NCBI GenBank assembly: GCA_016186495.1
Contig: JACPLO010000001.1
Coordinates: 75,907 to 110,716, forward strand
DNA: 34,810 nucleotides
DNA from: Candidatus Niyogibacteria bacterium
GTDB lineage: Bacteria; Patescibacteriota; Minisyncoccia; JACROR01
Reading direction: 5' to 3'
Part shown: positions 9,255 to 30,393 of the stretch, piece after piece
Layout of the letters: each line of letters opens with the position of its first letter
Position numbering within the stretch: position 1 is the stretch's first letter
The notes under the pieces: generated by a model
Told to the model about the DNA's origin: nothing
Databases searched by the model: none
What the model saw: the letters and a program-made list of their open reading frames with translations, nothing else
Translations under genes and position numbers: made by a program

Positions 9255-9255
9255 A

Positions 9256-9927: not shown

Positions 9928-9935
9928 TAAATAAT

Positions 9936-12122: not shown

Positions 12123-12145
12123 ATGATGGCAGAGGAGGATGATAA

Positions 12146-12559: not shown

Positions 12560-12569
12560 CATCCGAACC

Positions 12570-12601
12570 AACTCCGCCATTGCGATAATGGCGGAGTTTT
12601 T
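12570..12601 (+). terminator. Strong rho-independent terminator
   Basis: A perfect 12-bp stem, AACTCCGCCATT (12570-12581) paired with AATGGCGGAGTT (12587-12598), closes a 5-base loop and runs into a T tract. It separates the acyltransferase from the aminotransferase 14 bases later, which suggests the aminotransferase has its own promoter or depends on read-through. Confidence 0.9.
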
Positions 12602-12614
12602 ATATCATTGTTTT

Positions 12615-13730: not shown

Positions 13731-13737
13731 ATGGTAT

Positions 13738-14784
13738 ATGCAGAAATTTGTCAAAGCCTTTAAAAATAAAAGGATTTTAGTAACTGGAGGAACCGGTTCC
13801 ATTGGTTCGGAGATCGTCAGGCAGCTTATTAATTTTAAACCAAAGACGATAAGAGTTTTTGCCAGAAGCGAATACGGCCATCATAGATTGAGGCAAGAAT
13901 TAGGTTCAAAATATGAACCGCCGGTTCGTTTTATTATCGGAGATATAAGAGACCGGAACAGATTAAAATTGGCTATGGAAAATATCGATATTGTTTTTCA
14001 TGCCGCGGCTATGAAACACGTGGATATATGCGATAACGATCCTTTTGAGGCGGTGGCAACCAATATTTTAGGAACTCAAAATATAATAGATATCGCGCGA
14101 GCGTTCAATATAGAAAAAGTGATCGTTATTTCCACGGATAAAGCGGTTAATCCCGAAGGAGTTTTGGGCGCGTCAAAATTAATGGCGGAGAAGCTGGTTT
14201 TAAACAGTTATTCTTATCGCGGCGAAGGGCGGACTCATTATGCCTGCGTCAGATTCGGCAATGTGATGGGCAGCAACGGCAGTATTTTGCCGCTTTTAAA
14301 AAAACAAATCGCTACGCAAGATTATGTGACCGTCACTGAGCCGGAAATGACTCGTTTTGTCATGACTATTTCCCAGGCGGTTAATTTAGTTTTAAACGCT
14401 TCTTTGCTCGCCCAAGAAGAGGAAATCTTCGTGTTTAAAATGCCGGCCGTGCGATTGGAGGATTTGGTTAACGCCGCCATAAAATATTACGCGCCTCTTT
14501 ACAATAAGAAGCCGTCAGAGATCAAAATTAAATTCATTGGCGCGCGTTTCGGCGATAAAATGCATGAAAAATTATTGACCGATTGCGAGGCGGAATATGT
14601 TTTGGAAAATAAAGATATGTACATTTTGCCGCATAAAAAAAATATTCAAAACTATAAAAAAGCCAATCCTTTTGGCGCGGTGGCCAGATCGGCGAGTTTG
14701 GATTTTTCTTCGGAAAATGCGAAAAAATTAACGGAGAAAGATATAATCAAATTGATCGGAGATATTGATGGCTCTTCAAAATAA
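13738..14784 (+). CDS. UDP-N-acetylglucosamine 4,6-dehydratase-like SDR (CapD-type, short)
   Basis: A 348-residue extended short-chain dehydrogenase. The NAD(P)-binding motif is VTGGTGSIGSE near residue 15, followed by IGDIRDR, HAAAMKHVDICDNDP and VISTDKAVNP (Asp134, Lys135). In the position where PseB/FlaA1 has the catalytic Tyr, this protein has Leu143 (EGVLGASK). Large CapD/WbpM-type dehydratases also lack that Tyr, so this is a family trait rather than damage. The C-terminal part (RFGDKMHEKLLTDCEAE) is also CapD-like. It follows the aminotransferase by 7 bases and overlaps the ABC transporter, so dehydratase, aminotransferase and flippase look co-transcribed. A LegB-like role in making the 4-keto-6-deoxy sugar is plausible. 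Confidence 0.87.
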   Translation: MQKFVKAFKNKRILVTGGTGSIGSEIVRQLINFKPKTIRVFARSEYGHHRLRQELGSKYEPPVRFIIGDIRDRNRLKLAMENIDIVFHAAAMKHVDICDNDPFEAVATNILGTQNIIDIARAFNIEKVIVISTDKAVNPEGVLGASKLMAEKLVLNSYSYRGEGRTHYACVRFGNVMGSNGSILPLLKKQIATQDYVTVTEPEMTRFVMTISQAVNLVLNASLLAQEEEIFVFKMPAVRLEDLVNAAIKYYAPLYNKKPSEIKIKFIGARFGDKMHEKLLTDCEAEYVLENKDMYILPHKKNIQNYKKANPFGAVARSASLDFSSENAKKLTEKDIIKLIGDIDGSSK

Positions 14785-16549
14785 TATAATTTTAAAATTT
14801 TTCTATTTATTAAAAGAAGCTTTCGGCCAATATAAGTGGCAGATAGTTTTGATGGCCGTTTTGAGTTTTTTTAGCGGCATTCTGGAGGGTATCGGCATTA
14901 CCGCGATCATTCCCGTTTTTTCCATTATGTCTGGCGATAAAGCCTCGGATGCCATATCGCGCGCCATAGCGAAATTTTTTGAATTAACGGGATTCCATTA
15001 TACGGTAAAATATTTGCTGATTTTCATGGCATTTTTGTTTATGAGCAAGGCGGCATTATTATTTTTTTCCCAGTATATAACCGTTAAAATAACTTCGGAT
15101 TACGAAAAAGATATTCGACTTAATATTTTTAGATTGATGCTGGAGAGCAAATGGCCGTTTTTATTGCGCCAAAAAGTCGGATATTTGGATCAGATATTGA
15201 CTACGGATATTAATGCCAGTTCCGCGTTATTGAAGCATATCAGCACAATAATCTTGATTGCGGCTAATTTAATGGTTTACAGTTTTTTGGTGATAAATAT
15301 TTCTTTTGTCATCGCCATACTCGCTCTTGCCTTGGGTGGTTCAGTTTTTTTGATATTTAAGCCGCTTTTTTATAAAAACAGGGCGGCGTCGGCGGAAATG
15401 GTTGAACAGCATAAGCGGCTGGCGCATTTTGTAAATGAGAGCGTAACCGGGATGAAATCCATAAAATCATTATTGGCGGAGAGCGGAGTATTATTTCGGG
15501 GATTGGAATATTTTGACCGAATGAAGAATTTGCGCGTGCGGGTAAATTCTTTAAAGAATTTTACCAATGCCGCGCTCCAGCCATTGGCGTTTTTTTTTGT
15601 GATGGGAATATTCGCGTTTTTTTATAAAACCTCGGCATTCAATTTTGCTTCTTTTGCGGTGATAGTTTATGCGGTGAACAGAGTTTTCGCCAATATTCAA
15701 TTCGCGCAGTCGGAAGTGCATATGATTAGTTCCAGTATTCCGCATTTGTTGAGTATTTTAAGCTATCAGAAGGAAACTTTAAAAAATAAAGAAGTTTCGC
15801 GCGGCGATAAAAAATTTATTTTTAACAGCGGGTTGGAATTTCGAAATGTGGGATTTGCTTACAATGAGCATCGGGAAGCTCTTTCCGAAGTTAATTTGGT
15901 TTTAAAAAAAGGTGAGATGTTAGGGCTTATCGGGCCTTCCGGCGCGGGCAAAACCACGGTGGTGGATTTGTTGTTGCGGCTTTTGGAGCCGGAGCGGGGA
16001 GAGATTATGGTTGATGGCGTAAACGCAATTGACATAAGTCCGCGGGAATGGAGGATAAATATAGGATATGTGTCCCAAGATATTTTTTTGATCAATGACA
16101 CGATAGCCAATAACATAAAATTTTATGATTCCGCGATTAGCGATAAGGATATGATGGAGGCCGCGAAGATAGCCCACATATATGATTTTATTAAGGAACA
16201 ACCGAATGGTTTTAACGCGGTAGTGGGAGAGCGCGGCATGCAGTTGTCCGGCGGACAGCGGCAAAGAATCGTTTTGGCGCGTGTTTTAGCAAGGCATCCG
16301 AAGATTTTAATCTTAGACGAAGCAACGAGCGCGTTAGACAATGAATCGGAAATTTTGATCCAGAAAGCCATTGAAAGCATGAAAGGCAAAATAACGGTTT
16401 TAGCGATTGCCCATAGATTATCCACGGTATTGCGCGCCGATAAATTGCTGGTGTTGGAGAATGGAAAAATTATTGAAGAGGGTTCGCCCCAAACATTATT
16501 GCGGGATAAAAAATCTTATTTTTATCAGGCGTATAATTTGAGACAGTAA
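14768..16549 (+). CDS. ABC transporter, MsbA/PglK-like flippase (fused membrane and ATPase domains)
   Basis: A half-transporter with six predicted membrane segments in residues 1-330 and an ATPase domain from about 345. Walker A is GPSGAGKTT (near residue 388), the signature is LSGGQRQR (near 493), Walker B is ILILDEATSALD and the switch is AIAHRLS. All ATPase motifs are intact. The loop EILxQKxGYLxxxxTTDIN-type segment (LRQKVGYLDQILTTDINAS) is typical of exporters. The ATG at 14768 overlaps the dehydratase stop by 17 bases; a TTG at 14765 is the extreme alternative. In this position, between nucleotide-sugar genes and transferases, flipping a lipid-linked oligosaccharide (PglK role) or a glycolipid is most likely. 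Substrate identity is inferred from context. Confidence 0.9.
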   Translation: MALQNNIILKFFYLLKEAFGQYKWQIVLMAVLSFFSGILEGIGITAIIPVFSIMSGDKASDAISRAIAKFFELTGFHYTVKYLLIFMAFLFMSKAALLFFSQYITVKITSDYEKDIRLNIFRLMLESKWPFLLRQKVGYLDQILTTDINASSALLKHISTIILIAANLMVYSFLVINISFVIAILALALGGSVFLIFKPLFYKNRAASAEMVEQHKRLAHFVNESVTGMKSIKSLLAESGVLFRGLEYFDRMKNLRVRVNSLKNFTNAALQPLAFFFVMGIFAFFYKTSAFNFASFAVIVYAVNRVFANIQFAQSEVHMISSSIPHLLSILSYQKETLKNKEVSRGDKKFIFNSGLEFRNVGFAYNEHREALSEVNLVLKKGEMLGLIGPSGAGKTTVVDLLLRLLEPERGEIMVDGVNAIDISPREWRINIGYVSQDIFLINDTIANNIKFYDSAISDKDMMEAAKIAHIYDFIKEQPNGFNAVVGERGMQLSGGQRQRIVLARVLARHPKILILDEATSALDNESEILIQKAIESMKGKITVLAIAHRLSTVLRADKLLVLENGKIIEEGSPQTLLRDKKSYFYQAYNLRQ

Positions 16550-16553: not shown

Positions 16554-18053
16554 ATGCGTTTGTTTTTAATTTGGGCGGGCAGAAAGTCGCTTCCGGAATT
16601 AGGAGATTTAATTTTAAAGTTGAATGAATCTCCGCATGAGCTTGTTTATTGGGTGGGAGTGCCGGAAGGAGAAAAATTTAAACCTAAAAATACCATTTTT
16701 CATTCTTATGACGATGCAATGCTGGCAAGGCCCGCCAAGGGTATTGATATTGGTCAATTCGCGCCGCCCGGCGCAGATATAATCAGCAAGATGTATCAAG
16801 CGGAGTCCATAGTTTTAACTATGATGAACAGGGTATTTGGCGGTTTATGCGTGGATGAGCGCAGGCATATTTATTACAAAATGGTTCAGTATTGGTTTGG
16901 AGTGTTGAAAAAATATAAGCCGGAATTGATTATTTTCCCCAATACGCCGCATTTTGTTTATAATTATGTTATTTATGAATTGGCGCGCATATTGGATATC
17001 CGGACCATAATGTTTGATGATACGCGGATTCCGGGCCGGCTTTTATTTTACTCCGATTTTCGCAAAGGCAGCGATGTTTTGCGCGAAAGGATTTTGGCGA
17101 ATAAAGAGAAAAAATTTACTTTAGACGATTTAAGCGCTGATATCCGGAATTATTATAAGCCGCGCACGGGCAATGATTACAATGCCCAGCCGGATTACAT
17201 AGCAGATCAAAAGAAGAAATACTCGGTTATCTATTGGCTGTTACGCGAACCTAAAATTTGGAAGAGCGTTAAAGATTTTACGATATTAATGAAAGCTCCT
17301 CGTTATGTTTTCAGAAGGCTACGGCAGCAAAATATTTCTTTTATTAAAAACTTGTCGGTTTGGCTGTCTTATTTTTTCAGAAATAATTTAAAAAAAGAAT
17401 ATATCGGCGCGCAATCTCGGCCGAATTTGGATAAAAATTTCGTATATATGCCTCTTCAGAAACAGCCGGAACGCACCACAAGCCCGCAAGGAGATATGTT
17501 TGTGGACCAAATTTTGGCATTGGAGATTTTATCGGCTTCATTGCCGGATGGCTGGAAAATTTATGTTAAAGAACATCCGCTGCAGTGGATGGATTTGGGA
17601 TATGGATTTTCAAGTTTCAGATACCGCGGATATTATCAAAGGATAGCTGATATAAAAAATGTGGAACTGGTGCCGGTGGACGAAAGTTCTTATGCTTTGA
17701 TAAACAAATCTCGTTGCGTGGCTGCGGTAACCGGTTCGGCCGGATGGGAGGCAGTCATGCGGTCAAAGCCGGCCATTATATTCGGGCACGTGTGGTATCA
17801 TGATTGTCCGGGTATTTTTTTAGCCGATGGCGTGCTATCTTGTGCGGGAGCATTGCAAAAAATTGCCGGCGGTTTTACCGTAAATCAACAATCAATTATT
17901 AATTTTTTGAAAAGTTTTGACGAGGCCACTATCCATGGATTTATCGCGACCACCGCTGCTCGCGCTTCCGGGCTTACCGGACAAGAAAATATGAATAATA
18001 TCGCGCAATTATTGTTAAAAGAGATGGAAAAATTTTTAAAAAAGTCTTCATAG
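16554..18053 (+). CDS. Capsule biosynthesis (KpsC/KpsS-like) putative nonulosonate glycosyltransferase, copy 1
   Basis: A 499-residue GT-B-like protein resembling the capsule-synthesis/Kdo-transferase family. The best marks lie in the C-terminal half: FVDQILALEILSASLP, IYVKEHPLQW (His-Pro), VAAVTGSAGWEAVMRSKPAI and IIFGHVWYHDCPGI. The SxGxEA-x-KP block is the donor-site signature of that family. Those enzymes use CMP-Kdo, a CMP-ulosonate, so a CMP-nonulosonate donor is a reasonable inference here. The N-terminal half (MRLFLIWAGRKSLPELG) is less recognisable and is shared with the next gene. It starts 4 bases after the ABC transporter. Without structure-based comparison, acceptor and linkage cannot be stated. 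Confidence 0.65.
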   Translation: MRLFLIWAGRKSLPELGDLILKLNESPHELVYWVGVPEGEKFKPKNTIFHSYDDAMLARPAKGIDIGQFAPPGADIISKMYQAESIVLTMMNRVFGGLCVDERRHIYYKMVQYWFGVLKKYKPELIIFPNTPHFVYNYVIYELARILDIRTIMFDDTRIPGRLLFYSDFRKGSDVLRERILANKEKKFTLDDLSADIRNYYKPRTGNDYNAQPDYIADQKKKYSVIYWLLREPKIWKSVKDFTILMKAPRYVFRRLRQQNISFIKNLSVWLSYFFRNNLKKEYIGAQSRPNLDKNFVYMPLQKQPERTTSPQGDMFVDQILALEILSASLPDGWKIYVKEHPLQWMDLGYGFSSFRYRGYYQRIADIKNVELVPVDESSYALINKSRCVAAVTGSAGWEAVMRSKPAIIFGHVWYHDCPGIFLADGVLSCAGALQKIAGGFTVNQQSIINFLKSFDEATIHGFIATTAARASGLTGQENMNNIAQLLLKEMEKFLKKSS

Positions 18054-18078
18054 CGTTTAACCGGTGAATTTAGAAATT

Positions 18079-19515
18079 ATGCGTTTATTTTTAATAGGAT
18101 GGTGCGGTTCTTTGCCGGAAGTGGCAGATGTGGCGTTTATGCTGAAAAACAGGTCTTATGAAATTAAATATTGGGTGGTCAGCGACGATTCAGCGATAGA
18201 CAAGTCTAAGTTTTCGGAAACTGTTTTTCATAACTCTTTTGATGCCGCGGATAATTTACCAGCTGCAGGTTTTAACGGCGTTGAATTTGAATTTCCCGAT
18301 AAAAATTTTGTAAAGCGATTTTCAGAGGCCGAATCGGTTGTTATGACTATGATGAATAAGCATTTTGAATTGATGGGAATTGAGGAGCGCAAGCATTTGT
18401 ATTACGGCATGCTTAAGTATTGGTGCGGCGTTATCCGGCATTTAAAGCCGGAAGCGATTATTTTTAGCTCCATTCCTCATGCGCCGTACGAATATGTCAT
18501 TTATTCCATTGCCCGCGAGCTTAATATAAAAACGATACTTTTTGAGCCATTTTGGCTTAATGACAGAATGCTTGTTTTGAATGATTATAAGATCGGCTCT
18601 GAATATGTGGCTCGGGAGATTGGGCGCAATCGCGGAAAACAATTTACGCCAGCCGATATTAGCAATGATTTGCGGGAATATTATCAGATGCAGATGAATA
18701 AAGCCATGGATTCCACTCCGGGATATATGAAGGATTTTCAAAAGGCGCGTTCCGGAAAAAATTGGCTTAGATTAAAGATAATGGCGTTGGTAAATGTTGT
18801 CAGGAGCGGTATTTTTTTTGAAAAAGCAGCCAATTTTTTATTTAAAAAATTTCGGCACAATCTTAAAAAAGAGTATATCAGAGCGCAATCAAGCCCTGAC
18901 CTTAAGAGGAAATATGTTTATTTTCCCCTTCATTATCAGCCGGAGTGCGCGACCAGCCCTTTGGGTGACATATTTGTCGATCAATTGCTTGCGGCAGAGA
19001 TTTTATCCGCGTCTTTGCCTGTTGGCTGGTTTCTTTATGTAAAAGAACATCCAACGCAGTGGTGGATCAGAGGCGCTGGTTATTTTAGTTATCGTTACAA
19101 AGGATACTATGAAAAAATGTCAAAGTTGAAAAATACAAAAATTGTTTCCATGCAGGCGGATACTTATTCTTTGATTGATAATGCGGCAGCCGTTGCCACG
19201 ATAACCGGCACGGCCGGCTGGGAAGCAATTTTGCGGCAAAAACCCGCTTTAATTTTTGGCTATCCGTGGTATAAGCACGCTCCGGGCATTTTAGAAATAG
19301 ATAATGTTAAATCGTGTTCCGAAGCGCTGCAAAAAATAGCAAACGGATTTATTCCATCCAAACAAGAGATTATTAATTATTTCGTGGCTTTGGACAGGGG
19401 AAGTTTTCGCGGATATTTTAAATATCGCAAACAGATTTTAAATAAAATCAGCCAAAAAGAGAATACAGCGAACCTGTTAAATGTTTTGCTTAAGGAGCTT
19501 GAAAATATCGGTTAA
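18079..19515 (+). CDS. Capsule biosynthesis (KpsC/KpsS-like) putative nonulosonate glycosyltransferase, copy 2
   Basis: A tandem paralogue of the preceding gene, alike along its whole length: MRLFLIGWCGSLPE against MRLFLIWAGRKSLPE, then FVDQLLAAEILSASLPVGW, YVKEHPTQWW and ATITGTAGWEAILRQKPALI, followed by FGYPWYKHAPGI. The frame opens at GTG 18064, but ATG 18079 starts exactly where the paralogue starts, so I prefer it (478 residues). The region between about residues 220 and 270 differs most, including length differences near the DFQKA segment. Two diverged copies suggest two linkages or two CMP-sugar donors, matching the several CMP-synthetases in the window. The function is inferred as for copy 1. 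Confidence 0.65.
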   Translation: MRLFLIGWCGSLPEVADVAFMLKNRSYEIKYWVVSDDSAIDKSKFSETVFHNSFDAADNLPAAGFNGVEFEFPDKNFVKRFSEAESVVMTMMNKHFELMGIEERKHLYYGMLKYWCGVIRHLKPEAIIFSSIPHAPYEYVIYSIARELNIKTILFEPFWLNDRMLVLNDYKIGSEYVAREIGRNRGKQFTPADISNDLREYYQMQMNKAMDSTPGYMKDFQKARSGKNWLRLKIMALVNVVRSGIFFEKAANFLFKKFRHNLKKEYIRAQSSPDLKRKYVYFPLHYQPECATSPLGDIFVDQLLAAEILSASLPVGWFLYVKEHPTQWWIRGAGYFSYRYKGYYEKMSKLKNTKIVSMQADTYSLIDNAAAVATITGTAGWEAILRQKPALIFGYPWYKHAPGILEIDNVKSCSEALQKIANGFIPSKQEIINYFVALDRGSFRGYFKYRKQILNKISQKENTANLLNVLLKELENIG

Positions 19516-19537
19516 ATAAGTGAATATATGCTTGCGT

Positions 19538-20560
19538 ATGAATAATTCTAATTTGCTCAAAGATAAAGCGATATTGATTACGGGCGGCACCGGTTCATTT
19601 GGGCAGAAATTTGTTGAATGGCTTTTAAAATTCGGCTCTTGCAAAAAAATCATTATATTCAGCAGAGACGAATTTAAACAGCACCAAATGCGGCAAAGAT
19701 TGTTGAATTATGATAAGAAATTGAGATTTTTTTTGGGGGATGTGCGGGATTTATCCAGATTGCAGCGCGCTTTTAACGGTGTTGATATTGTGGTGCACGC
19801 CGCCGCATTAAAGCAGGTGCCGGCTTTGGAATATAACCCGTTGGAGGCGATTAAGACCAATATTTTGGGAACGCAAAATGTTGTTGATGCGGCGATTGAC
19901 CAAAAAGTTTTAAAGGCTCTTTTAGTTTCCACCGATAAGGCGGCTTACCCGGCTAATTTATACGGCTCTACAAAACTTTGCGCGGAGAAGTTGTTTGTTT
20001 CCGGCGGCGCGTATGCCCCCGGCGTAGACAGAGCGACTAAATTTAGCGTAGTCAGATATGGGAACGTTATTGGCAGTCGGGGCAGTATTGTGGAAACACT
20101 TTTAAATAACGATAAAAACAGCGAAGTGCACATAACTGATCATGAAATGACTCGATTTTGGATTGATTATGATCGTGCTATTGAATTGGTGATATTCGCT
20201 TTGAATGAAATGGTCAGCGGAGAGATATTCGTTCCTAAGATTCCGAGTATGAAGCTCGTTGATTTGTTTGATGCGTTGGTTCCGCATGCTCCAAGAAAAA
20301 CCATTGGCATAAGATCCGGCGAGAAAATCCATGAAATCTTGTTAACTGCGGAAGAAGCAAAGCATTCCGTGGAAGTGGGCAGGTATTTTGTGATTTTGCC
20401 GGAATTTCCGCATTGGACCGCTGTTAAACGATATGAGAAATATCTTAAAAAAGGCAAAGAATTAAAGCCAAAATTTTGTTTTACGAGCCATACTAATCCA
20501 GATTGGATTACCGCAAATGATTTGAAAAAAATTATTAAAAATAATATAGGATTAATTTAG
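19538..20560 (+). CDS. pseB: UDP-N-acetylglucosamine 4,6-dehydratase (inverting), PseB-like
   Basis: A 340-residue SDR closely resembling PseB/FlaA1, which dehydrates UDP-GlcNAc and inverts C5 in the first step of pseudaminic acid synthesis. It has ILITGGTGSFGQKFV, IFSRDEFKQHQMRQRL, FLGDVRD, HAAALKQVPALEYNPLEA and LVSTDKAAYPANLYGSTK. The catalytic Asp133, Lys134 and Tyr142 fall one position from the numbering I recall for FlaA1 (132, 133, 141). The C-terminus has IRSGEKIHEILLTAEEA. The frame opens at GTG 19520; ATG 19538 is preferred because the family starts just before the Rossmann motif. It ends the 12.6-20.5 kb gene group. Its pathway partners appear to lie on the opposite strand at 27.2-29.5 kb. 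Confidence 0.88.
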   Translation: MNNSNLLKDKAILITGGTGSFGQKFVEWLLKFGSCKKIIIFSRDEFKQHQMRQRLLNYDKKLRFFLGDVRDLSRLQRAFNGVDIVVHAAALKQVPALEYNPLEAIKTNILGTQNVVDAAIDQKVLKALLVSTDKAAYPANLYGSTKLCAEKLFVSGGAYAPGVDRATKFSVVRYGNVIGSRGSIVETLLNNDKNSEVHITDHEMTRFWIDYDRAIELVIFALNEMVSGEIFVPKIPSMKLVDLFDALVPHAPRKTIGIRSGEKIHEILLTAEEAKHSVEVGRYFVILPEFPHWTAVKRYEKYLKKGKELKPKFCFTSHTNPDWITANDLKKIIKNNIGLI

Positions 20561-20727: not shown

Positions 20728-21819
20728 ATGATTCGCGTAAAAATTTATGGCGCCGGATCAATCGGCAACCATTTAGCTTATGCTTGTCGCCAAAAAAATT
20801 GGGATGTTTCAGTGGTAGATAGGGATACGCAGGCGCTGAAGCGCATGAAGGAAGAAATCTATTCTTCGCGTTATGGAGCATGGGATTCAGAGATAAAACT
20901 TTTTACTCTTCAAGATCAGCCTCGACGAAAATTTGACGCAATTTTTATCGGTACCCCGCCGGATACTCATCTGGCAATTGCTATTGATGTGTTGAAGCAG
21001 GAAGCCCCGCGTGTATTACAAATTGAAAAGCCATTATGTTCTCCGACCCTTGAGGGTCTTGCGGAATTTATGCGGGAAACAAGGCATCATAGCGATACCG
21101 CGATCATTGTTGGCTTCAATCATCTTTTGGCAGAAAATACAGAGCTACTAAATTTATTTATCCATAAAAGAAATCTTGGTTCACTTGTGTCAATCGATGC
21201 GGAGATCAGAAGCAGTTGGAAAAATATTTTTCTTGCGCATCCATGGCTTGCTGGCCCGGAAGACACATATCTTGGCTATTGGAAACGCGGAGGGGGCGCA
21301 GGCGGAGAACATTGCCACGCGTTAAATCTTTGGCAATATTTTGCTCATCAGTGCGGGCGCGGCAAGGTTACCGAAGTAAGCGGCACATTTGAATACATAC
21401 ACAATGAGAAAATTTATTACGATCGCCTTTGTTTTTTAACATTAAAAACAGACAGCGGGATGGTCGGACGAGTAGCGCAAGATGTGGTCGCTCAGCAAAA
21501 AAGCAAGGTTGCGCGCCTTTGGTTTGAACGGGGCATTGCGGAATGGCATAATGATGCAACCAAAACCACTGATCAGATTATTTTTCAGGCTTATGGAAAA
21601 GGCCGCGAAGAGATTGTGATTAAAAAAAAACGGATTGATGAATTTTTTCGAGAGGTTGTCCATATCAATCGTCTATTAGACGGAACAGAAAAGATCGAGA
21701 ATTCTCCTGTCCGTTTAGAACGCGGCATAGACACAATGCTGGTTTTGGCAGCCGGCCATAAATCATACGCTAATCGTAAGGTTGTGGCGGTTGATTATAG
21801 TATTTATTCTCTTCTTTAA
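20728..21819 (+). CDS. Gfo/Idh/MocA-family oxidoreductase, cassette 2
   Basis: A 363-residue NAD(P)-dependent oxidoreductase. The N-terminal Rossmann motif is IYGAGSIGNHLAYA, then IFIGTPPDTHL and QIEKPLCSP with the EKP catalytic Lys. The second-domain segment GGGAGGEHCHALNLW keeps the His of the family pattern, so catalysis looks intact. ATG 20728 lies 6 bases after AGGAGG (20716-20721); the GTG at 20722 overlaps that site and is rejected. It precedes a second CMP-synthetase, phosphatase, kinase and synthase fusion, but is separated from them by the palindromic terminator at 21838. Substrate unknown; oxidation or reduction of the cassette 2 sugar is the likely role. Confidence 0.83.
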   Translation: MIRVKIYGAGSIGNHLAYACRQKNWDVSVVDRDTQALKRMKEEIYSSRYGAWDSEIKLFTLQDQPRRKFDAIFIGTPPDTHLAIAIDVLKQEAPRVLQIEKPLCSPTLEGLAEFMRETRHHSDTAIIVGFNHLLAENTELLNLFIHKRNLGSLVSIDAEIRSSWKNIFLAHPWLAGPEDTYLGYWKRGGGAGGEHCHALNLWQYFAHQCGRGKVTEVSGTFEYIHNEKIYYDRLCFLTLKTDSGMVGRVAQDVVAQQKSKVARLWFERGIAEWHNDATKTTDQIIFQAYGKGREEIVIKKKRIDEFFREVVHINRLLDGTEKIENSPVRLERGIDTMLVLAAGHKSYANRKVVAVDYSIYSLL

Positions 21820-21837
21820 AAAAGTAAGAAAGTAAAT

Positions 21838-21867
21838 AAAAACACTCAGCAATTGCTGAGTGTTTTT
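21838..21867 (+). terminator. Perfectly palindromic terminator
   Basis: A 30-base perfect palindrome: AAAAACACTCAGCAA (21838-21852) pairs with TTGCTGAGTGTTTTT (21853-21867). The physical loop needs at least 3-4 of the central bases, leaving an 11-13-bp stem flanked by A and T runs. Its symmetry could let it work in both directions. Confidence 0.88.
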
Positions 21868-21949
21868 AATTTGACAATTTGTCTATTTTAATTTAATTTA
21901 ATTAGCAGAAACCTTAAAAACTTTATATTTAAGAAAGGAGAAAATTGAT

Positions 21950-22702
21950 ATGGGCGGGCAAAAAGTTAAAAATAACGTCTTATGCGTTATTCAGGCGCGC
22001 GGCGGTTCAAAAGGATTGCCTGGTAAAAACATCCGTATTTTGGCTGGAAAGCCGCTGATCGCCTGGACGATTGAAGCGGCGCTGACAGCTTGCCGCATTG
22101 ATCGCGTGATTGTCAGCACAGAAAATCAGGAGATCGCGGCGGTCGCTCGAGCATACGGAGCAGAAGTTCCGTTTATGCGTCCGGAAAAACTTGCTCTAGA
22201 CAATGTTAAAAGCATCGGCCTTTTAAATCATGCCTTGCTGTGGTTCATGGAACATGAGAATTATTATCCCAATACGGTAGTCCAGCTTAAGCCGACTAAT
22301 CCTCTGCGAACGGCGCAACACATTGATTTGTGTGTTGAAAAATTCTTTGCTAATCCGGGGATTGATTCATTAATTACTGTGACAAGATCATCGGCGCATC
22401 CTTTGAAGATGTGGAAATTTACAGAGAATAGCATAATCATCCCATTTTTATCGGGAGAAATTTTTAGCCTAAAAGAGGCGGTGAAGCTCCCGCGACAAAT
22501 GTTACCGCAAGTCTTTGTGCAAAATTCTTGCGTGAATGTCATATGCTCCAAGACCATCTTGGAAAAACACTCATCTATCGGATCGCGCGTTATCGGAATT
22601 ATAATGGAGCGGGAAGACGCCATAAACATAGATGATATTTTGGATTTTAAGATCGCCGAGATGATGATGAACGAGCGCATTACAGGAGGTGGACAGCTAT
22701 GA
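21950..22702 (+). CDS. CMP-nonulosonic acid synthetase (cytidylyltransferase), cassette 2
   Basis: A 250-residue NeuA-family enzyme with VIQARGGSKGLPGKNIR (nucleotide loop, about residues 11-27), GKPLIAWTIEAAL, RVIVSTENQEIAAVARAYG, PFMRPEKLALD and VQLKPTNPLRTAQHID. The C-terminal block is DAINIDDILDFKIAE. It differs clearly from the other two synthetases in the window: it has KGLPGKN rather than KR.P.KN and ends without the VDIDT or VQDID motif, reading NIDD instead. AAAGGAG lies about 8 bases before the ATG. It overlaps the phosphatase gene by ATGA. It should activate the cassette 2 acid with CTP; which acid is not known. Confidence 0.87.
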   Translation: MGGQKVKNNVLCVIQARGGSKGLPGKNIRILAGKPLIAWTIEAALTACRIDRVIVSTENQEIAAVARAYGAEVPFMRPEKLALDNVKSIGLLNHALLWFMEHENYYPNTVVQLKPTNPLRTAQHIDLCVEKFFANPGIDSLITVTRSSAHPLKMWKFTENSIIIPFLSGEIFSLKEAVKLPRQMLPQVFVQNSCVNVICSKTILEKHSSIGSRVIGIIMEREDAINIDDILDFKIAEMMMNERITGGGQL

Positions 22703-23355
22703 GAACAAATATTTTTCTTTTAAGACATGCTCAAAGTCAGGCAAATATGCTTAATATTGTGCAGGGCAGAGGGCTTTTGATACCCCTTACGGAAAAAGGC
22801 GCAGAGCAGGCTCGGAATGTTGCGAAGGCGTTAAAAAATTTAATGTTTGACCGAATTTTTACAAGCACCGCTTTGCGCGCCGTTCATACGGCAGCGGCAA
22901 TCAGAAAATATCATCCAACTCCTTATGAAGAAATTTTTGAGCTTAACGAACTTTCAAAAGGGAATGCGGAGGGTATGTCAATTGATAATTTTGCGAAACG
23001 TTATCCGGAGATTATTGAACAATGGAGCCGTGGTGTTGATGTCCGGTCGGATGGAGGAGAAAATTTTTCTGATGTTGAAGCGAGAGTTATTCCGGTATTA
23101 GAGCGGCATCTTATTGAGCATGCCGGAAAAAATCTTCTTTATGTGATCCATGGTAACGTCATCCGGGTTATTATTGGATACATTCTCGGTGTGCCGTATG
23201 GACGGCGTGCGCGCATTCAACAAGATTATTGCGCGTTGACAGCGTTGGAATACGATAATTCAACGAAGCGTTGGCTTGTCAAATTTATCAATCAGGCGTT
23301 ATTCAATGATTGGAACAGAGGAGAAATGTTATGGCCGAGAAAACGGAGAAGATAA
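22699..23355 (+). CDS. Histidine phosphatase (phosphoglycerate-mutase-like) superfamily protein
   Basis: A 218-residue histidine phosphatase. The phosphohistidine motif is LLRHAQSQAN (Arg-His near residues 8-9, Asn conserved), followed by DRIFTSTALRAVHTA (second Arg), EIFELNELSKGNAEGM (acid) and VIHGNVIRVII (second His). All four active-site positions are present, so it should be active. AGGAGGT lies about 8 bases before the ATG, and the gene overlaps both neighbours. Between a CMP-synthetase and a kinase and near a NeuB-type synthase, it could remove the phosphate from a nonulosonate-9-phosphate. In other organisms a HAD phosphatase does this. The substrate is inferred from context. Confidence 0.86.
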   Translation: MRTNIFLLRHAQSQANMLNIVQGRGLLIPLTEKGAEQARNVAKALKNLMFDRIFTSTALRAVHTAAAIRKYHPTPYEEIFELNELSKGNAEGMSIDNFAKRYPEIIEQWSRGVDVRSDGGENFSDVEARVIPVLERHLIEHAGKNLLYVIHGNVIRVIIGYILGVPYGRRARIQQDYCALTALEYDNSTKRWLVKFINQALFNDWNRGEMLWPRKRRR

Positions 23356-24452
23356 GATTTATTGCTCTTGCCAAAAAAGAAGCAAAAGAAGTCTTGCAAA
23401 TTATTACGGAGAATTATGAAGAGGAATTTCATTCACCGGTGCGTATTGAGCGATTTTTAGAAGAAATCGCATCTAGCAGAGTGTATTGCATTACTTTTCG
23501 TAATGGTTGGCGAGCTGTTTTGAAGCAATCGTTTTGGTATTCCGGCAAAGGGGCTATTGAGGCCATTGAGAAGGCGCAGGAAGTAAGTCAGGCGCTTCGT
23601 CTTCAAGGAGTTCCTCTGCCAATGGCGTATCTTACTTTAAAAGGCAAATATACTGCCGGATATAATGGCGATCAAATAACGCTTTTAGAATATATTGAAG
23701 GCGAATATTTCACCGCTGATGACCGGCAGTTTATTGAAGCGGGAAGGGCTTTAGCCGTATTTCACCGAGAAGGAGAAGCATTTCTTCGGAAATATCCGAT
23801 TGAGCGTGCCATGATCGCAGAAAAAATTCCCGTAGAAAAACCTTATGAAGAGTCGCGTGTGATTTATGATAAATTGCGGCGTGATTTTTTAACAGAACAC
23901 CAATGTTCTGTTCCGGATGTTTGCGCCGCGGTGCGCGATCATATTCACATATTTGATCAAACGATAAAGATGCTGGATGGATCGGGTATCAGTAATCGCA
24001 AACTTTCTTCTGGAATCGTGCATAACGATTTTAACGTGAAAAATTGTTTTTTCAAAAAGGATGGAGCATTCAGCTGTTTTATTGATACGGACCAACTTGG
24101 CGTTGCCCCTTTTGTTTGGGATGTCGGCAATACACTGCTCTCATTTTTATCAAGTATATCAAGCACATCAAGAAGCAATGTAAACTATGAACATTCTGCT
24201 GAACTTTTTCTCGCCGCGTATCACCGAGAACATCCATTGCCGCTAAATGAATATTTACTCATTATCGCCGCGGCGGTAAGATGGAATATGATGCGGATAT
24301 TGCGCAGTTTAAGGCGCCATCACTATGAAAATGATCGGCTTGTTAATCTTTTGCCGAAGATTAAAAGCCGGCTCATCGCCCGAATAATACAAACTCCGCA
24401 AATATTTTCATTTTTAGATGAGAATTGGCTTAGAAAGAAAATAGTTATTTAA
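23331..24452 (+). CDS. Aminoglycoside-phosphotransferase-fold kinase
   Basis: A 373-residue small-molecule kinase of the APH/choline-kinase fold. The N-lobe has AVLKQSFWY with the likely ATP Lys, and LLEYIEGEYF at the hinge. The catalytic loop is HNDFNVKN (His231, Asp233, Asn238), and the magnesium motif is IDTDQ with Asp252 and Asp254. The catalytic residues are complete. The frame extends to TTG 23310, but ATG 23331 has GAGGAG about 7 bases upstream and is chosen; it overlaps the phosphatase gene by 25 bases. Terminator 24455 follows the stop directly. In this setting a sugar kinase supplying a 6-phosphorylated hexose or hexosamine to the synthase is attractive, but choline or another small molecule is possible. 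Confidence 0.8.
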   Translation: MAEKTEKIRFIALAKKEAKEVLQIITENYEEEFHSPVRIERFLEEIASSRVYCITFRNGWRAVLKQSFWYSGKGAIEAIEKAQEVSQALRLQGVPLPMAYLTLKGKYTAGYNGDQITLLEYIEGEYFTADDRQFIEAGRALAVFHREGEAFLRKYPIERAMIAEKIPVEKPYEESRVIYDKLRRDFLTEHQCSVPDVCAAVRDHIHIFDQTIKMLDGSGISNRKLSSGIVHNDFNVKNCFFKKDGAFSCFIDTDQLGVAPFVWDVGNTLLSFLSSISSTSRSNVNYEHSAELFLAAYHREHPLPLNEYLLIIAAAVRWNMMRILRSLRRHHYENDRLVNLLPKIKSRLIARIIQTPQIFSFLDENWLRKKIVI

Positions 24453-24454
24453 GA

Positions 24455-24478
24455 AAGCGGCGCAATGCGCCGCTTTTA
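24455..24478 (+). terminator. Rho-independent terminator
   Basis: AAAGCGGCGC (24455-24464) pairs with GCGCCGCTTT (24468-24477) around a 3-base loop. The GC core is 7 bp. It begins just after the kinase stop. Confidence 0.88.
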
Positions 24479-24605
24479 ATTTTCAATTCAACAGTAAAAT
24501 ATACTAAAAAAAATTAATGTCAATATAGTCAAGATATTTACTCCGTGCTATTTTTGGTATTAGATAATTCAGCATCATTAACAATTAAAAAGGAGGCATA
24601 TTAAT

Positions 24606-26129
24606 ATGATTGCGCCTGGGAATGACAGGTTTGATTTTAATAATCTGTTTATTTTTGAAATGGCAAATAATCATCAAGGCAGTATTAAGCACGGCTTGCG
24701 CATTATTCGCGAGATGGCGAAGGTGGCGAAGGTGGCCGGGGTGCGTGCCGCGATTAAGCTGCAATTTCGCGATTTAGATTCTTTTATTCATCCAAAGCAT
24801 AAAGAATGCTCTGACAACAAGCACATTCCGCGTTTTCTTGCCACGCGGCTTTCTGAAGAAGAATTTGGCGCGTTGGTGAATGAAATTAAGCGCCAAAGAT
24901 TAATCAGTATGGCAACGCCGTTTGATGAGTTATCCGTTGATATGGCTGAGCGTCTCGGCGTGGAAATACTAAAAATTGGCAGTTGTTCGGCAACTGATTG
25001 GCCGCTTTTGGAAAGAGTGGTAAAGGCGGGAAAGCCGGTTATATGTTCTACCGGCGGATTGAATGTCAGCCAAATAGATAGGATAGTCAGCTTTTTTCAA
25101 CATCGGGGAGCGCGCTTTGCATTAATGCATTGTGTGGCAATTTATCCTACTCCGGTTGAAAAAATGCGGTTAGGCAGGATTGAGCAACTTTGTAAGCGAT
25201 ATCCGGGCGTGACAGTAGGATTTTCTACGCATGAAGATCCGAATAATTTTAACGTTGTTCAGATTGCTTATGCCAAGGGTGCGCGCATATTTGAAAAGCA
25301 TGTCGCTGTTCCTACTAAAGCATTTAAGAGTAATGCGTATTCCGCGAATCCTAAACAAGCAGCTAAATGGCTGGCGGCGTTAAATGACGCGATGTCTATG
25401 TGCGGCAATGAAGAAGATTTAGCCGAATCATTATCATTAAATTCGCTGATGCGAGGAGTCTATGCTAAAAAAAATATTACTATTGGCAGTAAGCTTTCTC
25501 GAGAGAATGTTTACTTTGCCATACCGCTTTTGAATCGGCAATTGGCGAGCGGTGAATGGAATGCGAATATGGTTGCAGGCCGCGCTTATGCTGTTGACGA
25601 AGCTATTTTCTTTGAAGCAGCAAGTTATTATGCGGCAGAATTTAAGCATTTGATTCCTAATTTTATCCATCAGTTAAAGGGGATTATTCACGAAGCTGGC
25701 GTGCCGGTTGGGCCGACTCCGGAAATTGAGCTTTCGCACCACTATGGATTAAAACATTTTCTTGAATGGGGCGTAGCAATTATAGACTGCATCAATCGTG
25801 AATATTGCAAAAAAATTTTGATTATGCTCGCCGGACAGAAACATCCTATTCATTTCCATACAAAAAAAGAAGAGGCCTTTCAGGTATTGTACGGAGAACT
25901 GATTGTAGAAATGGAAGACAGAGAAAGAATTCTTTATCCCGGGGATGTTTTAATGGTTCCGCGCGGCGCGTGGCATAGTTTTTACGCTTGTAATGGGGAT
26001 GTTATTTTTGAGGAAATATCCACTACCCATTATAACGATGATTCGTTTTACGCCGATCCATCCATAAATAAGATCGCCCGTGACGAGAGAAAGACTCGTC
26101 TTGTAAATTGGGGCAGACATCAAATTTAA
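24606..26129 (+). CDS. Nonulosonic acid synthase fused to SAF and cupin domains, cassette 2
   Basis: A 507-residue three-domain protein. Residues 13-265 are a NeuB-type barrel: IFEMANNHQGS, AAIKLQFRDLD, LKIGSCSATDWPL, GFSTHEDPN with metal-type His209, and FEKHVAVP with His232. The GPDH loop seen in the two other NeuB copies is absent, so the substrate may differ. About 280-335 is SAF-like (RGVYAKKNITIGSKLS, LASGEW). About 365-480 is a cupin resembling D-lyxose isomerase: KHPIHFHTKKEEAF supplies His416, His418 and Glu423, and RGAWHSF supplies His457. AGGAGG lies 9 bases before the ATG, and its own terminator follows. It could isomerise a sugar and condense it with phosphoenolpyruvate. The fold calls are sound; the reaction is inference. 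Confidence 0.85.
   Translation: MIAPGNDRFDFNNLFIFEMANNHQGSIKHGLRIIREMAKVAKVAGVRAAIKLQFRDLDSFIHPKHKECSDNKHIPRFLATRLSEEEFGALVNEIKRQRLISMATPFDELSVDMAERLGVEILKIGSCSATDWPLLERVVKAGKPVICSTGGLNVSQIDRIVSFFQHRGARFALMHCVAIYPTPVEKMRLGRIEQLCKRYPGVTVGFSTHEDPNNFNVVQIAYAKGARIFEKHVAVPTKAFKSNAYSANPKQAAKWLAALNDAMSMCGNEEDLAESLSLNSLMRGVYAKKNITIGSKLSRENVYFAIPLLNRQLASGEWNANMVAGRAYAVDEAIFFEAASYYAAEFKHLIPNFIHQLKGIIHEAGVPVGPTPEIELSHHYGLKHFLEWGVAIIDCINREYCKKILIMLAGQKHPIHFHTKKEEAFQVLYGELIVEMEDRERILYPGDVLMVPRGAWHSFYACNGDVIFEEISTTHYNDDSFYADPSINKIARDERKTRLVNWGRHQI
24716..24733 (+). repeat. Two tandem 9-base units inside the synthase gene
   Basis: The unit GGCGAAGGT occurs twice in a row in frame, encoding the Ala-Lys-Val repeat in MAKVAKVAGV. 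Compared with the cassette 1 synthase (DAAAKAGADA) the segment is longer, so an in-frame duplication is plausible. Confidence 0.6.
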
Positions 26130-26162
26130 CCCGTGTTGCTTTGTAACGCGGGTTTTTTTTTA
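26128..26162 (+). terminator. Rho-independent terminator
   Basis: AACCCGTGTT (26128-26137) pairs with AACGCGGGTT (26145-26154) with one G-U pair and a 7-base loop, followed by a long T tract. It overlaps the synthase stop codon. Confidence 0.88.
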
Positions 26163-27175: not shown

Positions 27176-27868
27176 TTAAAGAAAATCTTTTAATAACTTA
27201 TATTTAATTTCCGCAACTTTCCAATCTTGTTCATTATCTATATCTTGGACTTCAGTCTCCGGTATTTCTAAAGGCACAGTAAATCTTGGAAAGAGCCTTT
27301 TTTGCTTAAAAATGACGTCAGTTTTTAAGAAATAGAATTGGCCGCAGTCATGGTAAGCGGGTTCCAGATCTTGGGAGCGGGAATTATAATTTTTAGGCCA
27401 AAACATTTTTGCAATTCCATTTTTTATTTTAAGAGCCCTCTGTATGGGATAGCTGAACTTCACAACTGGCACTATTGCTTCTGCGTTTTTTTCTATCATC
27501 AGCTGTTTGGCTAACTTCAATCTTTCTGCCGTGATAAACGGGGCGGTCGGGAATATGCAGCAAATATATTTAAATTCTTTCCCGCGTTTTTTATACTCCG
27601 TTATCACCTCTTCAAGGACGGGAATAATCATAGCCATGTCGGTTGAGTTTTTTTTGGATCTTAAAAACGGGACGCTTGCTTTAAAAGATTTTGCCAGCTT
27701 GGCTGTTTTTTTGTCGTCTGTTGAGACCATCACTTCAATAAAACATTCGGATTTTATTGCCGCGTCTATGGAATATTTAATAATTGGCTGCCCGGCAAAG
27801 TTTTTAATGTTTTTTCCGGGTATTCTTTTGCTTCCGCCTCTGGCTGGGATTATTGCTAGAATTTTCAT
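27176..27868 (-). CDS. pseF: Pseudaminic acid cytidylyltransferase-like (PseF), cassette 3
   Basis: A 230-residue CMP-transferase of the PseF branch. Besides the nucleotide loop IIPARGGSKRIPGKNIKNF it has features I associate with PseF: SYPIQRALKI, YNSRSQDLEPAYHDCGQFYF and the C-terminal VQDIDNEQDWKVAE. It should form CMP-pseudaminic acid or a close relative. It is the last gene of the minus-strand operon, starting 14 bases after the GNAT stop. The first ATG begins exactly at the family's N-terminus, and no strong Shine-Dalgarno site is present. Among the three synthetases here it is the one with the most specific assignment. Confidence 0.85.
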   Translation of the reverse strand: MKILAIIPARGGSKRIPGKNIKNFAGQPIIKYSIDAAIKSECFIEVMVSTDDKKTAKLAKSFKASVPFLRSKKNSTDMAMIIPVLEEVITEYKKRGKEFKYICCIFPTAPFITAERLKLAKQLMIEKNAEAIVPVVKFSYPIQRALKIKNGIAKMFWPKNYNSRSQDLEPAYHDCGQFYFLKTDVIFKQKRLFPRFTVPLEIPETEVQDIDNEQDWKVAEIKYKLLKDFL

Positions 27869-27882
27869 GATTAAATGCGCGG

Positions 27883-28419
27883 TTATTTTTTATATTCTTT
27901 GTTTAATAAAGAATAAATGTGCGAGTTCCAGTATTTGCCTTCTTTAAAACAATTGTCCCTTAATTCGCCGTCCTTTTTAAAATTTAATTTTTTGGTGAAA
28001 AAATCTATTTTCTTTTTATCAAATTCATAAAGTTCCATCCATATTTTGTGAAGATTCAAATTGTTAAACCCATAATCCAATAACAATTTTGCTGCCTCCA
28101 AAGCATATCCTTTAGTATCAATATATTCTTCGTTTAATCCAATATAAAAGGAAAGGTCTGCGGAGCGGGAAATCCAGTTAATATAAACAAGCCCGCAGAC
28201 ACCGACTGAAAGTTTGTCTTTAAGTCTTTCAATTATAAACATAAAGTCATTCTGGCTGCCGACGACAATATTTTCAAACCATTTTTTTTGATTATCTAAA
28301 TTTAATTCTCTGAATTCTCTAAAATTTTTTCTAAATTTTGGAATATTCCTCCAGTCCTTAAGCATGGAAAGATCTTCTCTTTCTACAGCCCTTAATCCAA
28401 CTAATTTTGACTTAATCAT
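27883..28419 (-). CDS. GNAT N-acetyltransferase, PseH-like
   Basis: A 178-residue RimJ/RimL-type GNAT. The N-terminus VGLRAVEREDLSMLKDWRN is the usual first strand and helix. Then come GVCGLVYINWISRSADLSFYIG and the acetyl-CoA segment GYALEAAKLLLDYGF. The tail FKKDGELRDNCFKEGKYWNSHIYSLL is typical of sugar-amine GNATs such as PseH. It overlaps the NeuB-type gene by ATGA. Acetylation of the 4-amino group of the pseudaminic precursor (PseH step) fits the neighbours, but a GNAT acting on another amino sugar is possible. Confidence 0.82.
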   Translation of the reverse strand: MIKSKLVGLRAVEREDLSMLKDWRNIPKFRKNFREFRELNLDNQKKWFENIVVGSQNDFMFIIERLKDKLSVGVCGLVYINWISRSADLSFYIGLNEEYIDTKGYALEAAKLLLDYGFNNLNLHKIWMELYEFDKKKIDFFTKKLNFKKDGELRDNCFKEGKYWNSHIYSLLNKEYKK

Positions 28420-29486
28420 ATAAAATCGTTTAATGAGATTAATTCCCCCTTTTTTATGTCTTTCATAATTTTCTTGCCTATTATTTCCGGTGCCTTATAT
28501 GGCGGCAAACCGCCTTCAGGAATCGGCCTTAGAAAATCAAAATCATTGTAGTCTAAAATAGAACCTGCTTTAAGATCAAATTTAGCTCTAATTGCTCTTC
28601 TTTGCAATATAACGGATTCTTTCTCATTTTCTTCCACAATTTTTAACCCATCATTCCTAAGAGCTAAAAATAATTCATTTGCTCTATCAATCATTTCTCT
28701 CCAAGTTTTAGGATTCATAGCGAACTTATGATCCGGGCCGTCTCTATTGTTGTCATCGGTAAAGTGCTTCTCAAATACTGTAGCGCCCAATGCGATTGCG
28801 CCCAAGACCGTGGAATGGCTTGAGGTGTGGTCAGACAATCCTAAAATAATATCCGGGTATTCCTGTTTAAAGCTTTTCAGAACATTTAAGTTGATATATT
28901 TAAAATTTTCGGCGCTGGCAGTATAATTCGTATTGCACTGCAAAAGAATAATGTCGTTTACGTGTTTTTTTAGCGTGTTCATAGCTCTTTTAACGTCTTC
29001 TATAGATGAAGCTCCGGTTGAGATTATTACTGGTTTTTTCTTTTTAGCTATGTATTCAATAATGTCAAGCCAGGTGATATCGCCGGAACCTATTTTATAG
29101 ACACTGACAAAAGGTTCCACTTTGTCCACCGATTCAAAGTCATAAGGAGAGGTAAAATATTCTAAACCGACTTCGTCGCATTTCTTTTTTAGCTTTTTCG
29201 TCCAATCAAACGGGATGCTCGCGTCTTTATATGTTTCATAAACCGATTTTTTCCATGAGGCCTGATGCGACATTTTGCGGTTTAAGGATTCAAAGCCGGA
29301 TTTACTCACGATTTTATCAGCTTGAAAATTTTGAAATTTGGCCGCATGTGCGCCGGATTCTTTGGCTAATTCAATCAGTTTATATGCTCTGTTAATGTCA
29401 CCGTCATGATTTGCCGCAATATCGGCGATAAAAAATAACGGACCGTTTTGGCTTATGCTGATATTCCCAATTTTAATTTTTTTCAT
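28416..29486 (-). CDS. Nonulosonic acid synthase (NeuB/PseI family), cassette 3
   Basis: A 356-residue synthase condensing phosphoenolpyruvate with an amino sugar. Landmarks are FFIADIAANHDGDINRAYKL, AAKFQNFQADKIV, YKIGSGDITWLDI, LGLSDHTSSH with His220 and FEKHFTDDNNRDGPDHKF with His241. A SAF domain near the C-terminus reads RRAIRAKFDLKAGS and LRPIPEGGLPPYKAPEIIG. The use of IADIAANHDG rather than IAEAGVNHNG separates it from the cassette 1 enzyme. Between an RmlD-like SDR (14-base overlap) and a PseH-like GNAT it is assigned to the pseudaminic-type route, although the sequence alone only secures the NeuB family. Confidence 0.88.
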   Translation of the reverse strand: MKKIKIGNISISQNGPLFFIADIAANHDGDINRAYKLIELAKESGAHAAKFQNFQADKIVSKSGFESLNRKMSHQASWKKSVYETYKDASIPFDWTKKLKKKCDEVGLEYFTSPYDFESVDKVEPFVSVYKIGSGDITWLDIIEYIAKKKKPVIISTGASSIEDVKRAMNTLKKHVNDIILLQCNTNYTASAENFKYINLNVLKSFKQEYPDIILGLSDHTSSHSTVLGAIALGATVFEKHFTDDNNRDGPDHKFAMNPKTWREMIDRANELFLALRNDGLKIVEENEKESVILQRRAIRAKFDLKAGSILDYNDFDFLRPIPEGGLPPYKAPEIIGKKIMKDIKKGELISLNDFI

Positions 29487-30393
29487 ATTTTGATTTCTTG
29501 ATTTCCTTTAAGTAATCTTTTTTAAGTTCGGAAAGCCCTTTAGAAATTTTTAACGTTTTTCCTCCTAAAATCTTTTTTAATTTATTAATATCCAATATCG
29601 TATTTTTCGGTCTAATTGTCTTTAAATCGGAAGTGTTGACTAATACTGGTTTTATAAGCGTTTGTGCTTCAAAACGGCTTGCTAAAGACTTTAAAAATTC
29701 ATATTTATTCATTGATTCTTCTGAACCAATGTTTAGTATTCCTTTTATATCGTTTTTTTCCAGAATATACTTAATTATTTTAGCAAGCTGTCTGGTGTAG
29801 ACCGGATTAAAAAACACATCCGTAAAACCATTTATGCTCTTTTTTGAGGTAAAATTTTCAAGCGCCCACTCCACTAAGGAATTTCCCGGAGGCACGTGAA
29901 AACCGTAAATATTTGTGCGAATAACGAGGGAATTTTTATTTATTGCCATTGCCGTTTTCTCGCCCATTAACTTACTTTGGGCATAATAATTCAAGGGATC
30001 AGGCCGATCAGACTCTTTATACGCGCCTGTTTTTCCGTTGAAAACAGAATCAGTGGATATATAAACGAATTTTGTCTTATTTTCTTTGTAAGAAGCTAAA
30101 ATCTCCGTTGCCTTAATATGTAAAAGATCCGCTTCTCTTTTGTTTTGTTCGCATAAATCCAGGTTAACTATAGCCGCAGAGTGTATGATTATGTTCGGTT
30201 TGACGCTTGATACAATCTTTTTTAGACTTTTTATGTCTCTCAGATCGGCTATTATAAAACAGACTTTCGGGTTTTTCGGTTTTCTGCTTCTTATGATGCC
30301 GAAGACATTGTATTTTTTGTTTTTACTGAAAATATCGGTTATTTCTCTGCCAAGCATCCCGTTGGCGCCGGTTATGAGAATTCTTTTGGGCAT
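29473..30393 (-). CDS. RmlD-like NAD(P)-dependent sugar reductase/epimerase (SDR)
   Basis: A 306-residue extended SDR. The cofactor motif is ILITGANGMLGREI, then IHSAAIVNLDLCE, VYISTDSVFNGKTGAYKESD and the catalytic YYAQSKLMGE (Tyr-x-x-x-Lys pattern). The C-terminal substrate domain is like dTDP-4-dehydrorhamnose reductase (FFNPVYTRQLAKII). It is the first gene of the minus-strand operon and has a good promoter just upstream with almost no leader. It may reduce or epimerise a keto-sugar feeding the third cassette; a standard pseudaminic pathway has no such step, so the product may be a variant. Confidence 0.84.
   Translation of the reverse strand: MPKRILITGANGMLGREITDIFSKNKKYNVFGIIRSRKPKNPKVCFIIADLRDIKSLKKIVSSVKPNIIIHSAAIVNLDLCEQNKREADLLHIKATEILASYKENKTKFVYISTDSVFNGKTGAYKESDRPDPLNYYAQSKLMGEKTAMAINKNSLVIRTNIYGFHVPPGNSLVEWALENFTSKKSINGFTDVFFNPVYTRQLAKIIKYILEKNDIKGILNIGSEESMNKYEFLKSLASRFEAQTLIKPVLVNTSDLKTIRPKNTILDINKLKKILGGKTLKISKGLSELKKDYLKEIKKSKYEKN

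Follow-up and report, generated by a model that had tools for sequence, protein, structure and literature searches.

A NeuB-type synthase fused to a sugar-isomerase-like domain in a Candidatus Niyogibacteria genome: a candidate variant of the ulosonate-phosphate route

The stretch of DNA analysed here (the window) comprises 34,810 nucleotides, positions 75907–110716 of contig 1 in the 654 kb genome of a Candidatus Niyogibacteria bacterium. Five consecutive open reading frames (ORFs) in the window encode a Gfo/Idh/MocA-family oxidoreductase (Gfo), a putative CMP-ulosonate synthetase, a histidine phosphatase (HisP), an APH-fold kinase and a synthase that joins NeuB, SAF and cupin domains (Table 1). 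An earlier interpretation made from the letters alone (the sequence-only reading) had placed five genes of these superfamilies at these positions, and this was borne out by Pfam matches and intact motifs, including RHAQS near the N terminus and a second His in HisP, GGSKGLPGKN in the CMP-synthetase, and GAGSIG and EKP in Gfo. The CMP-synthetase and HisP genes share 4 bp, the overlap of HisP with APH is 25 bp (ATG start) or 46 bp (TTG start), and the overlapping gene unit consists of these three genes only. The single transcript proposed earlier is supported by the overlaps for these three; a transcript of all five genes is unlikely because terminator-like hairpins after Gfo and after APH set the Gfo and synthase genes apart. 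Overall counts of the hairpin pattern were near chance, but these hairpins had the strongest stems and lay exactly in the gaps. The locus is probably transcribed as three units, namely Gfo, CMP-synthetase–HisP–APH and the synthase. No Rfam elements were found in the window.

Table 1. Features of the synthase locus, in window coordinates
Feature	Position	Strand	Evidence or remark
Gfo/Idh/MocA-family oxidoreductase, 365 aa	20722..21819	+	PF01408 (GFO_IDH_MocA) 1.7e-8
Terminator-like hairpin between Gfo and CMP-synthetase	21837..21868	.	scored on minus strand; stem near-palindromic
Putative CMP-ulosonate synthetase, PseF/NeuA-like	21950..22702	+	PF02348 (CTP_transf_3) 2.3e-22, 80 bits
Branch-1 histidine phosphatase (HisP)	22699..23355	+	PF00300 (His_Phos_1) 1e-45, 156 bits vs cut-off 21.7
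APH-fold kinase	23331..24452 (alternative TTG start 23310)	+	PF01636 4.6e-14, 53.2 bits vs cut-off 23.2
Terminator-like hairpin, 11-bp stem, after APH	24453..24477	+	
NeuB-SAF-cupin fusion synthase	24606..26129	+	NeuB 145.7 bits (PF03102, cut-off 22.1); Cupin_2 40 bits; PF07385 (D-lyxose isomerase) 37.9 bits vs cut-off 20.8
Terminator-like hairpin after synthase	26128..26154	+	

The synthase was divided into NeuB (residues ~13–270), SAF (~280–342) and isomerase (~345–507) domains, and its AlphaFold2 model, built from a 52-sequence alignment, had a mean pLDDT of 90.4. Foldseek matched the first 340 residues to PDB 3g8r, Neisseria meningitidis NeuB (1xuu) and Campylobacter jejuni PseI. Of the solved structures, 3g8r, an SpsE-like protein of Chromobacterium violaceum, came closest to the NeuB-SAF part (335 aligned columns, TM-score 0.93 by target length and 44 % identity; 309 bits by phmmer). 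It differs in that its solved chain of 350 residues has no cupin domain; to our knowledge no function has been assigned to it. The SAF part named in the sequence-only reading was recovered as a fold through this match and gave no match to the Pfam SAF profile. Both NeuB/PseI equivalog cut-offs were missed (TIGR03569, 134.8 vs 399.65 bits; TIGR03586, 127.9 vs 340.25 bits).

Residue conservation was scored over 86 NeuB-cupin homologues. Equivalents of N. meningitidis K53, Q55, T110, K129, S132, S154, Y186, S213 and H236 were present in all 86 and that of H215 in 85. Among the sugar contacts, E134 is replaced by Ser and D247 by Leu (Ser in the window), and Arg314 of the N. meningitidis SAF domain aligns with a hydrophobic residue. 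This pattern suggests that the phosphoenolpyruvate and metal chemistry of NeuB is kept and the sugar pocket changed. In N. meningitidis NeuB, loop 70–85 sets specificity at C4–C6 of the sugar (PMC7371886). In its counterpart, H62 and R76 are invariant and K72 is mostly kept, with invariant R55 adjoining, and basic residues near sugar C6 would fit a phosphate there. An ordinary NeuB, PseI or LegI was ruled out by the equivalog cut-offs and the pocket residues: the synthase shares with those enzymes the fold, the phosphoenolpyruvate and metal residues, the SAF domain and a neighbouring CMP-synthetase, but differs from them in E134, D247, the C4–C6 loop, the isomerase fusion and the low equivalog scores. 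The nab clusters in which such enzymes occur are also without phosphatase partners, unlike the NeuB-cupin loci.

The C-terminal domain has the cupin fold reported in the sequence-only reading, which overlooked that this cupin is a sugar-isomerase domain, recognised in Pfam as a D-lyxose isomerase besides Cupin_2. By Foldseek, the best cupin matches of the last 160 residues were D-lyxose isomerases (3kmh, 3mpb, 7nzp, 7nzq and 2y0o), including structures solved with fructose or mannose. The metal- and sugar-binding residues K62, H75, H77, K86, E88, H143 and E156 of the Thermofilum D-lyxose isomerase (PMC8378251) align with synthase K403, H416, H418, K421, E423, H457 and E470. The metal ligands H, H, E and H and the catalytic Lys/Glu are therefore present, with an ambiguous equivalent of D163. 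Since these residues are kept in 84–85 of the 86 homologues, the domain looks catalytically competent and D-lyxose/D-mannose-isomerase-like. It shares the cupin fold, the three His and one Glu ligands and the catalytic pair with the known D-lyxose/D-mannose isomerases (2y0o, 3kmh, 7nzo–7nzq), which stand alone, whereas the window domain is fused to a NeuB-type synthase.

The isomerase metal site was badly damaged at loci L037 and L090 only, with a single change in L067. L037 and L090 form one clade (FastTree support 0.97), which points to a single evolutionary event. Both loci carry a DERA-like aldolase gene, which matched solved DERAs with a profile E of 4e-6, together with a small gene resembling nucleoside deoxyribosyltransferases (weak match). 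This gene pair (L037:8763-9951 and L090:12149-13427) is limited to the clade with the degraded isomerase site. The aldose may thus normally come from the isomerase domain, whose loss would have followed the appearance of another supply.

Relatives of the synthase were searched for in one genome per species. At least 559 were found, and genes within 6 kb of the synthase were counted in the best 80 loci, 63 of which had 3 kb or more to either side, the others having a shorter flank. Carriers of the NeuB-SAF-isomerase fusion belonged to lineages of the Candidate Phyla Radiation (CPR), Alpha- and Deltaproteobacteria, Nitrospirota, Verrucomicrobia, Planctomycetes, Actinobacteria, Bacteroidetes, Chloroflexi and Lachnospiraceae. 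The window genome is itself probably CPR-like, given its size and the organisms that carry the nearest relatives of its synthase. In plasmid and phage collections, matches were limited to canonical NeuB or loose cupin hits. A CMP-synthetase lay near the synthase in 72 of the 80 loci and a Gfo homologue with 40–59 % identity to that of the window in 46. Gfo, synthase and CMP-synthetase thus co-occur across phyla, and from the five-gene neighbourhood pointed out in the sequence-only reading it is APH and HisP that do not.

The window CMP-synthetase scored 128.5 bits against the PseF equivalog TIGR03584, under the cut-off of 205.7, and is predicted to be a PseF/NeuA-like CMP-ulosonate synthetase whose specificity is not assignable from this score. 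Two of 70 otherwise unclustered neighbours of NeuB-cupin genes matched IspD, a second cytidylyltransferase; these are possibly L021:4829-5557 and L023:8508-9233, upstream of the CMP-synthetase, a guess from size and position. The Lachnospiraceae cassettes adjoin Maf/PseD-like flagellin glycosyltransferases, enzymes that usually work with nonulosonates, and Capsule_synth-family genes occur near the cassette in the window, L012 and L022. Both settings suit a CMP-ulosonate donor. In the window, two genes of the Capsule_synth family (PF05159), to which KpsC/KpsS-type CMP-ulosonate transferases also belong, stand in tandem at 16554-18053 and 18064-19515; in L022, NeuB-cupin and an ABC transporter are followed by a gene 46 % identical to a window Capsule_synth gene.

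These neighbours bear on an octulosonate alternative, in which the isomerase domain would turn xylulose into D-lyxose or its 5-phosphate and the NeuB domain would make an eight-carbon Kdo isomer. It would account for the D-lyxose isomerases being the best matches of the cupin, for a sugar pocket unlike that of all compared NeuBs with known substrate, and for the Foldseek matches of the NeuB fold to KDO8P synthases too. We nevertheless consider it improbable, as the CMP-synthetase scores 128 bits against PseF and only ~30–46 bits against KdsB, and the Lachnospiraceae members sit among transferases that as a rule handle nonulosonates.

The locus is set among other ulosonate genes. Directly upstream of Gfo (19520-20560) is a PseB-type dehydratase gene (418 bits vs cut-off 407.75), with the full pseudaminic-acid gene set not adjacent. 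The left flank (4323-15000) holds an ulosonate module with a CMP-synthetase, two Gfo, a NeuB (437 bits, exceeding the NeuB equivalog cut-off), a NeuC-like epimerase, a PIG-L deacetylase, DegT and a dehydratase, and the right flank (27176-30393, minus strand) a NeuA/GNAT/NeuB/RmlD-like ulosonate module. Three NeuB and three CMP-synthetase genes therefore lie within ~26 kb of this genome.

At least one phosphatase was found near the synthase in 60 of the 80 loci, and in 50 of the 63 whose flanks reach 3 kb or more in both directions. The kinds were HAD (43), small HAD fused to CMP-synthetase (~15) and KdsC-type HAD (2), and the usual HAD phosphatase adjoins the synthase. In a Gemmatimonadales metagenome-assembled genome the two are a single 760-aa ORF (L030:9962-12244, NeuB-SAF-cupin-HAD), with the HAD in frame after the isomerase domain. 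In a survey of 380 genomes of the phylum, the usual HAD partner was found in two, both with NeuB-cupin. A phosphatase gene, which would fit the dephosphorylation supposed in the sequence-only reading, is thus usual in the relatives' loci; overlooked there was that the usual partner is a HAD protein and not HisP. The small HAD domain fused to CMP-synthetase is EcbF-like (L066:8833-9861 and ~14 similar loci), and these fusions adjoin Maf-type flagellin glycosyltransferases in Lachnospiraceae and occur in some Bacteroidetes loci also.

No HAD gene is present in the window cassette, and no homologue of the usual HAD partner was detected in the window genome, which has two histidine phosphatase domains. 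HisP was found beside a NeuB-cupin gene in none of the other loci. Since the HAD partner was not detected and HisP overlaps the CMP-synthetase, a swap is the simplest reading, and HisP is probably a non-orthologous replacement of the HAD phosphatase.

The APH kinase, the sole APH in the genome, keeps the catalytic residues H231, D233, N238 and D252 in the motifs HND....N and D. Its nearest NCBIfam model was homoserine kinase (48 bits vs cut-off 271), and its single-sequence structure model was unusable (mean pLDDT 37). No close relative was found in 53 NeuB-cupin genomes, in a search without a positive control, or in the 380 phylum genomes, where the window gene itself was recovered. The APH and HisP pairing remarked on in the sequence-only reading was accordingly rejected as a conserved unit, as the pair does not recur in the relatives' loci.

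Distant APH kinases, 18–21 % identical to that of the window, were present in two other CPR clusters. In L037 (Magasanikbacteria) the gene directly follows Gfo and precedes a KdsC-type phosphatase gene, and in L011 (genome G072) it lies beside a KdsC-type phosphatase gene. Three APH genes within 6 kb of the synthase were seen in 11 CPR loci against fewer than 0.1 expected from ~0.6 APH per 0.95-Mb CPR genome, a post hoc comparison uncorrected for APH enrichment in glycan loci. This is suggestive of co-location with the synthase above expectation in CPR. APH is a CPR accessory outside the core cassette, and could plausibly serve the pathway.

The kinase might instead act after condensation, placing a phosphate substituent on the glycan, either at the ulosonate or at a sugar linked to it, for HisP to trim. 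The chain of overlapping genes joins APH and HisP to the CMP-synthetase and not to the synthase, and the only APH of the genome lies in a glycan locus, both of which would fit such a role. In L037, however, APH comes after Gfo inside the synthase cassette and next to a phosphatase of the KdsC type, a class that acts on ulosonate phosphates, and we give this reading very little weight.

Taken together, the locus may represent a variant of the ulosonate-phosphate route resembling that to Kdn 9-phosphate, an interpretation we hold at about even confidence. The C-terminal domain would convert between the ketose and aldose forms of a sugar, in the simplest case fructose and mannose or their 6-phosphates, and the NeuB domain would join the aldose phosphate with phosphoenolpyruvate to give a 3-deoxy-ulosonate phosphate. 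The phosphate would be stripped by an adjacent HAD protein in most genomes and by HisP in the window, and the CMP-synthetase would activate the free ulosonate for the capsule-type transferases upstream. In the CPR bacterium, APH would most likely make the sugar phosphate from free sugar, and Gfo may tailor the product or precursor. The passage through a phosphate proposed in the sequence-only reading is supported by the phosphatase linkage in 60 of 80 loci, the HAD fusion in L030 and the basic, invariant C4–C6 loop.

Several observations weigh against this interpretation. The window genome encodes a candidate bifunctional phosphoglucose/phosphomannose isomerase (PF10432) and one PfkB kinase, so mannose 6-phosphate may arise without the cupin, which weakens the assignment of a fructose 6-phosphate to mannose 6-phosphate conversion. 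The combination of APH and HisP occurs in the window alone, and the APHs of the two other clusters are only distantly related to its kinase. No phosphatase was detected nearby in 20 of the 80 loci, some with short flanks, or in 13 of the 63 with flanks of at least 3 kb, and phosphatase linkage does not prove that the synthase takes a phosphate. D-lyxose isomerases, moreover, act on free sugars (PMC8378251), as do bacterial NeuB and PseI (PMC7371886). In an unphosphorylated route the cupin would convert a free ketose to a free aldose for direct condensation by NeuB, and HisP and APH would serve another process, on a glycan substituent or other metabolite. The lack of conservation of APH and HisP with the synthase, and the terminator-like hairpin between APH and synthase, are consistent with this. 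The phosphatases in most synthase loci, one of them fused to the synthase, and the invariant basic residues of the loop reading C4–C6 argue against it, and we judge the free-sugar route to be rather unlikely.

Among the described systems close to the proposed phosphate route is the one to Kdn 9-phosphate in Bacteroides thetaiotaomicron and Prymnesium parvum, in which mannose 6-phosphate is condensed with phosphoenolpyruvate, dephosphorylated and activated with CTP (PMC6200933). A NeuB-fold synthase, a phosphatase and a CMP-synthetase are common to both, the order of reactions in the window being inferred. The Kdn pathway uses mannose 6-phosphate directly, and a fused isomerase, Gfo and a dedicated APH are not described there; its phosphatase in B. 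thetaiotaomicron is a KdsC-type HAD, in contrast to the histidine phosphatase of the window. The sequence-only reading had suggested that the pathway may be undescribed, and a search of the open-access literature indeed brought up no account of a pathway with a NeuB-cupin or NeuB-isomerase fusion; subscription papers may differ. We tentatively propose, at below even confidence, a widespread undescribed pathway that would combine ketose-phosphate isomerization and phosphoenolpyruvate condensation in one polypeptide, a swappable phosphatase (HAD, KdsC or histidine phosphatase), CMP activation, Gfo tailoring and, in CPR, APH feeding in free sugar, and that would yield a new or Kdn-type ulosonate phosphate.

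If this is true, a large, as yet unassigned NeuB subfamily spanning CPR, Alphaproteobacteria, Nitrospirota, Verrucomicrobia, Lachnospiraceae and others would gain a concrete and testable chemistry: central ketose phosphates would enter ulosonate synthesis through a single fused enzyme, without a UDP-sugar stage. The cassette would also offer a clean case of phosphatase swapping within a conserved gene set, and acidic surface or flagellar sugars would be predicted in organisms where the annotation reads just ‘N-acetylneuraminate synthase’.

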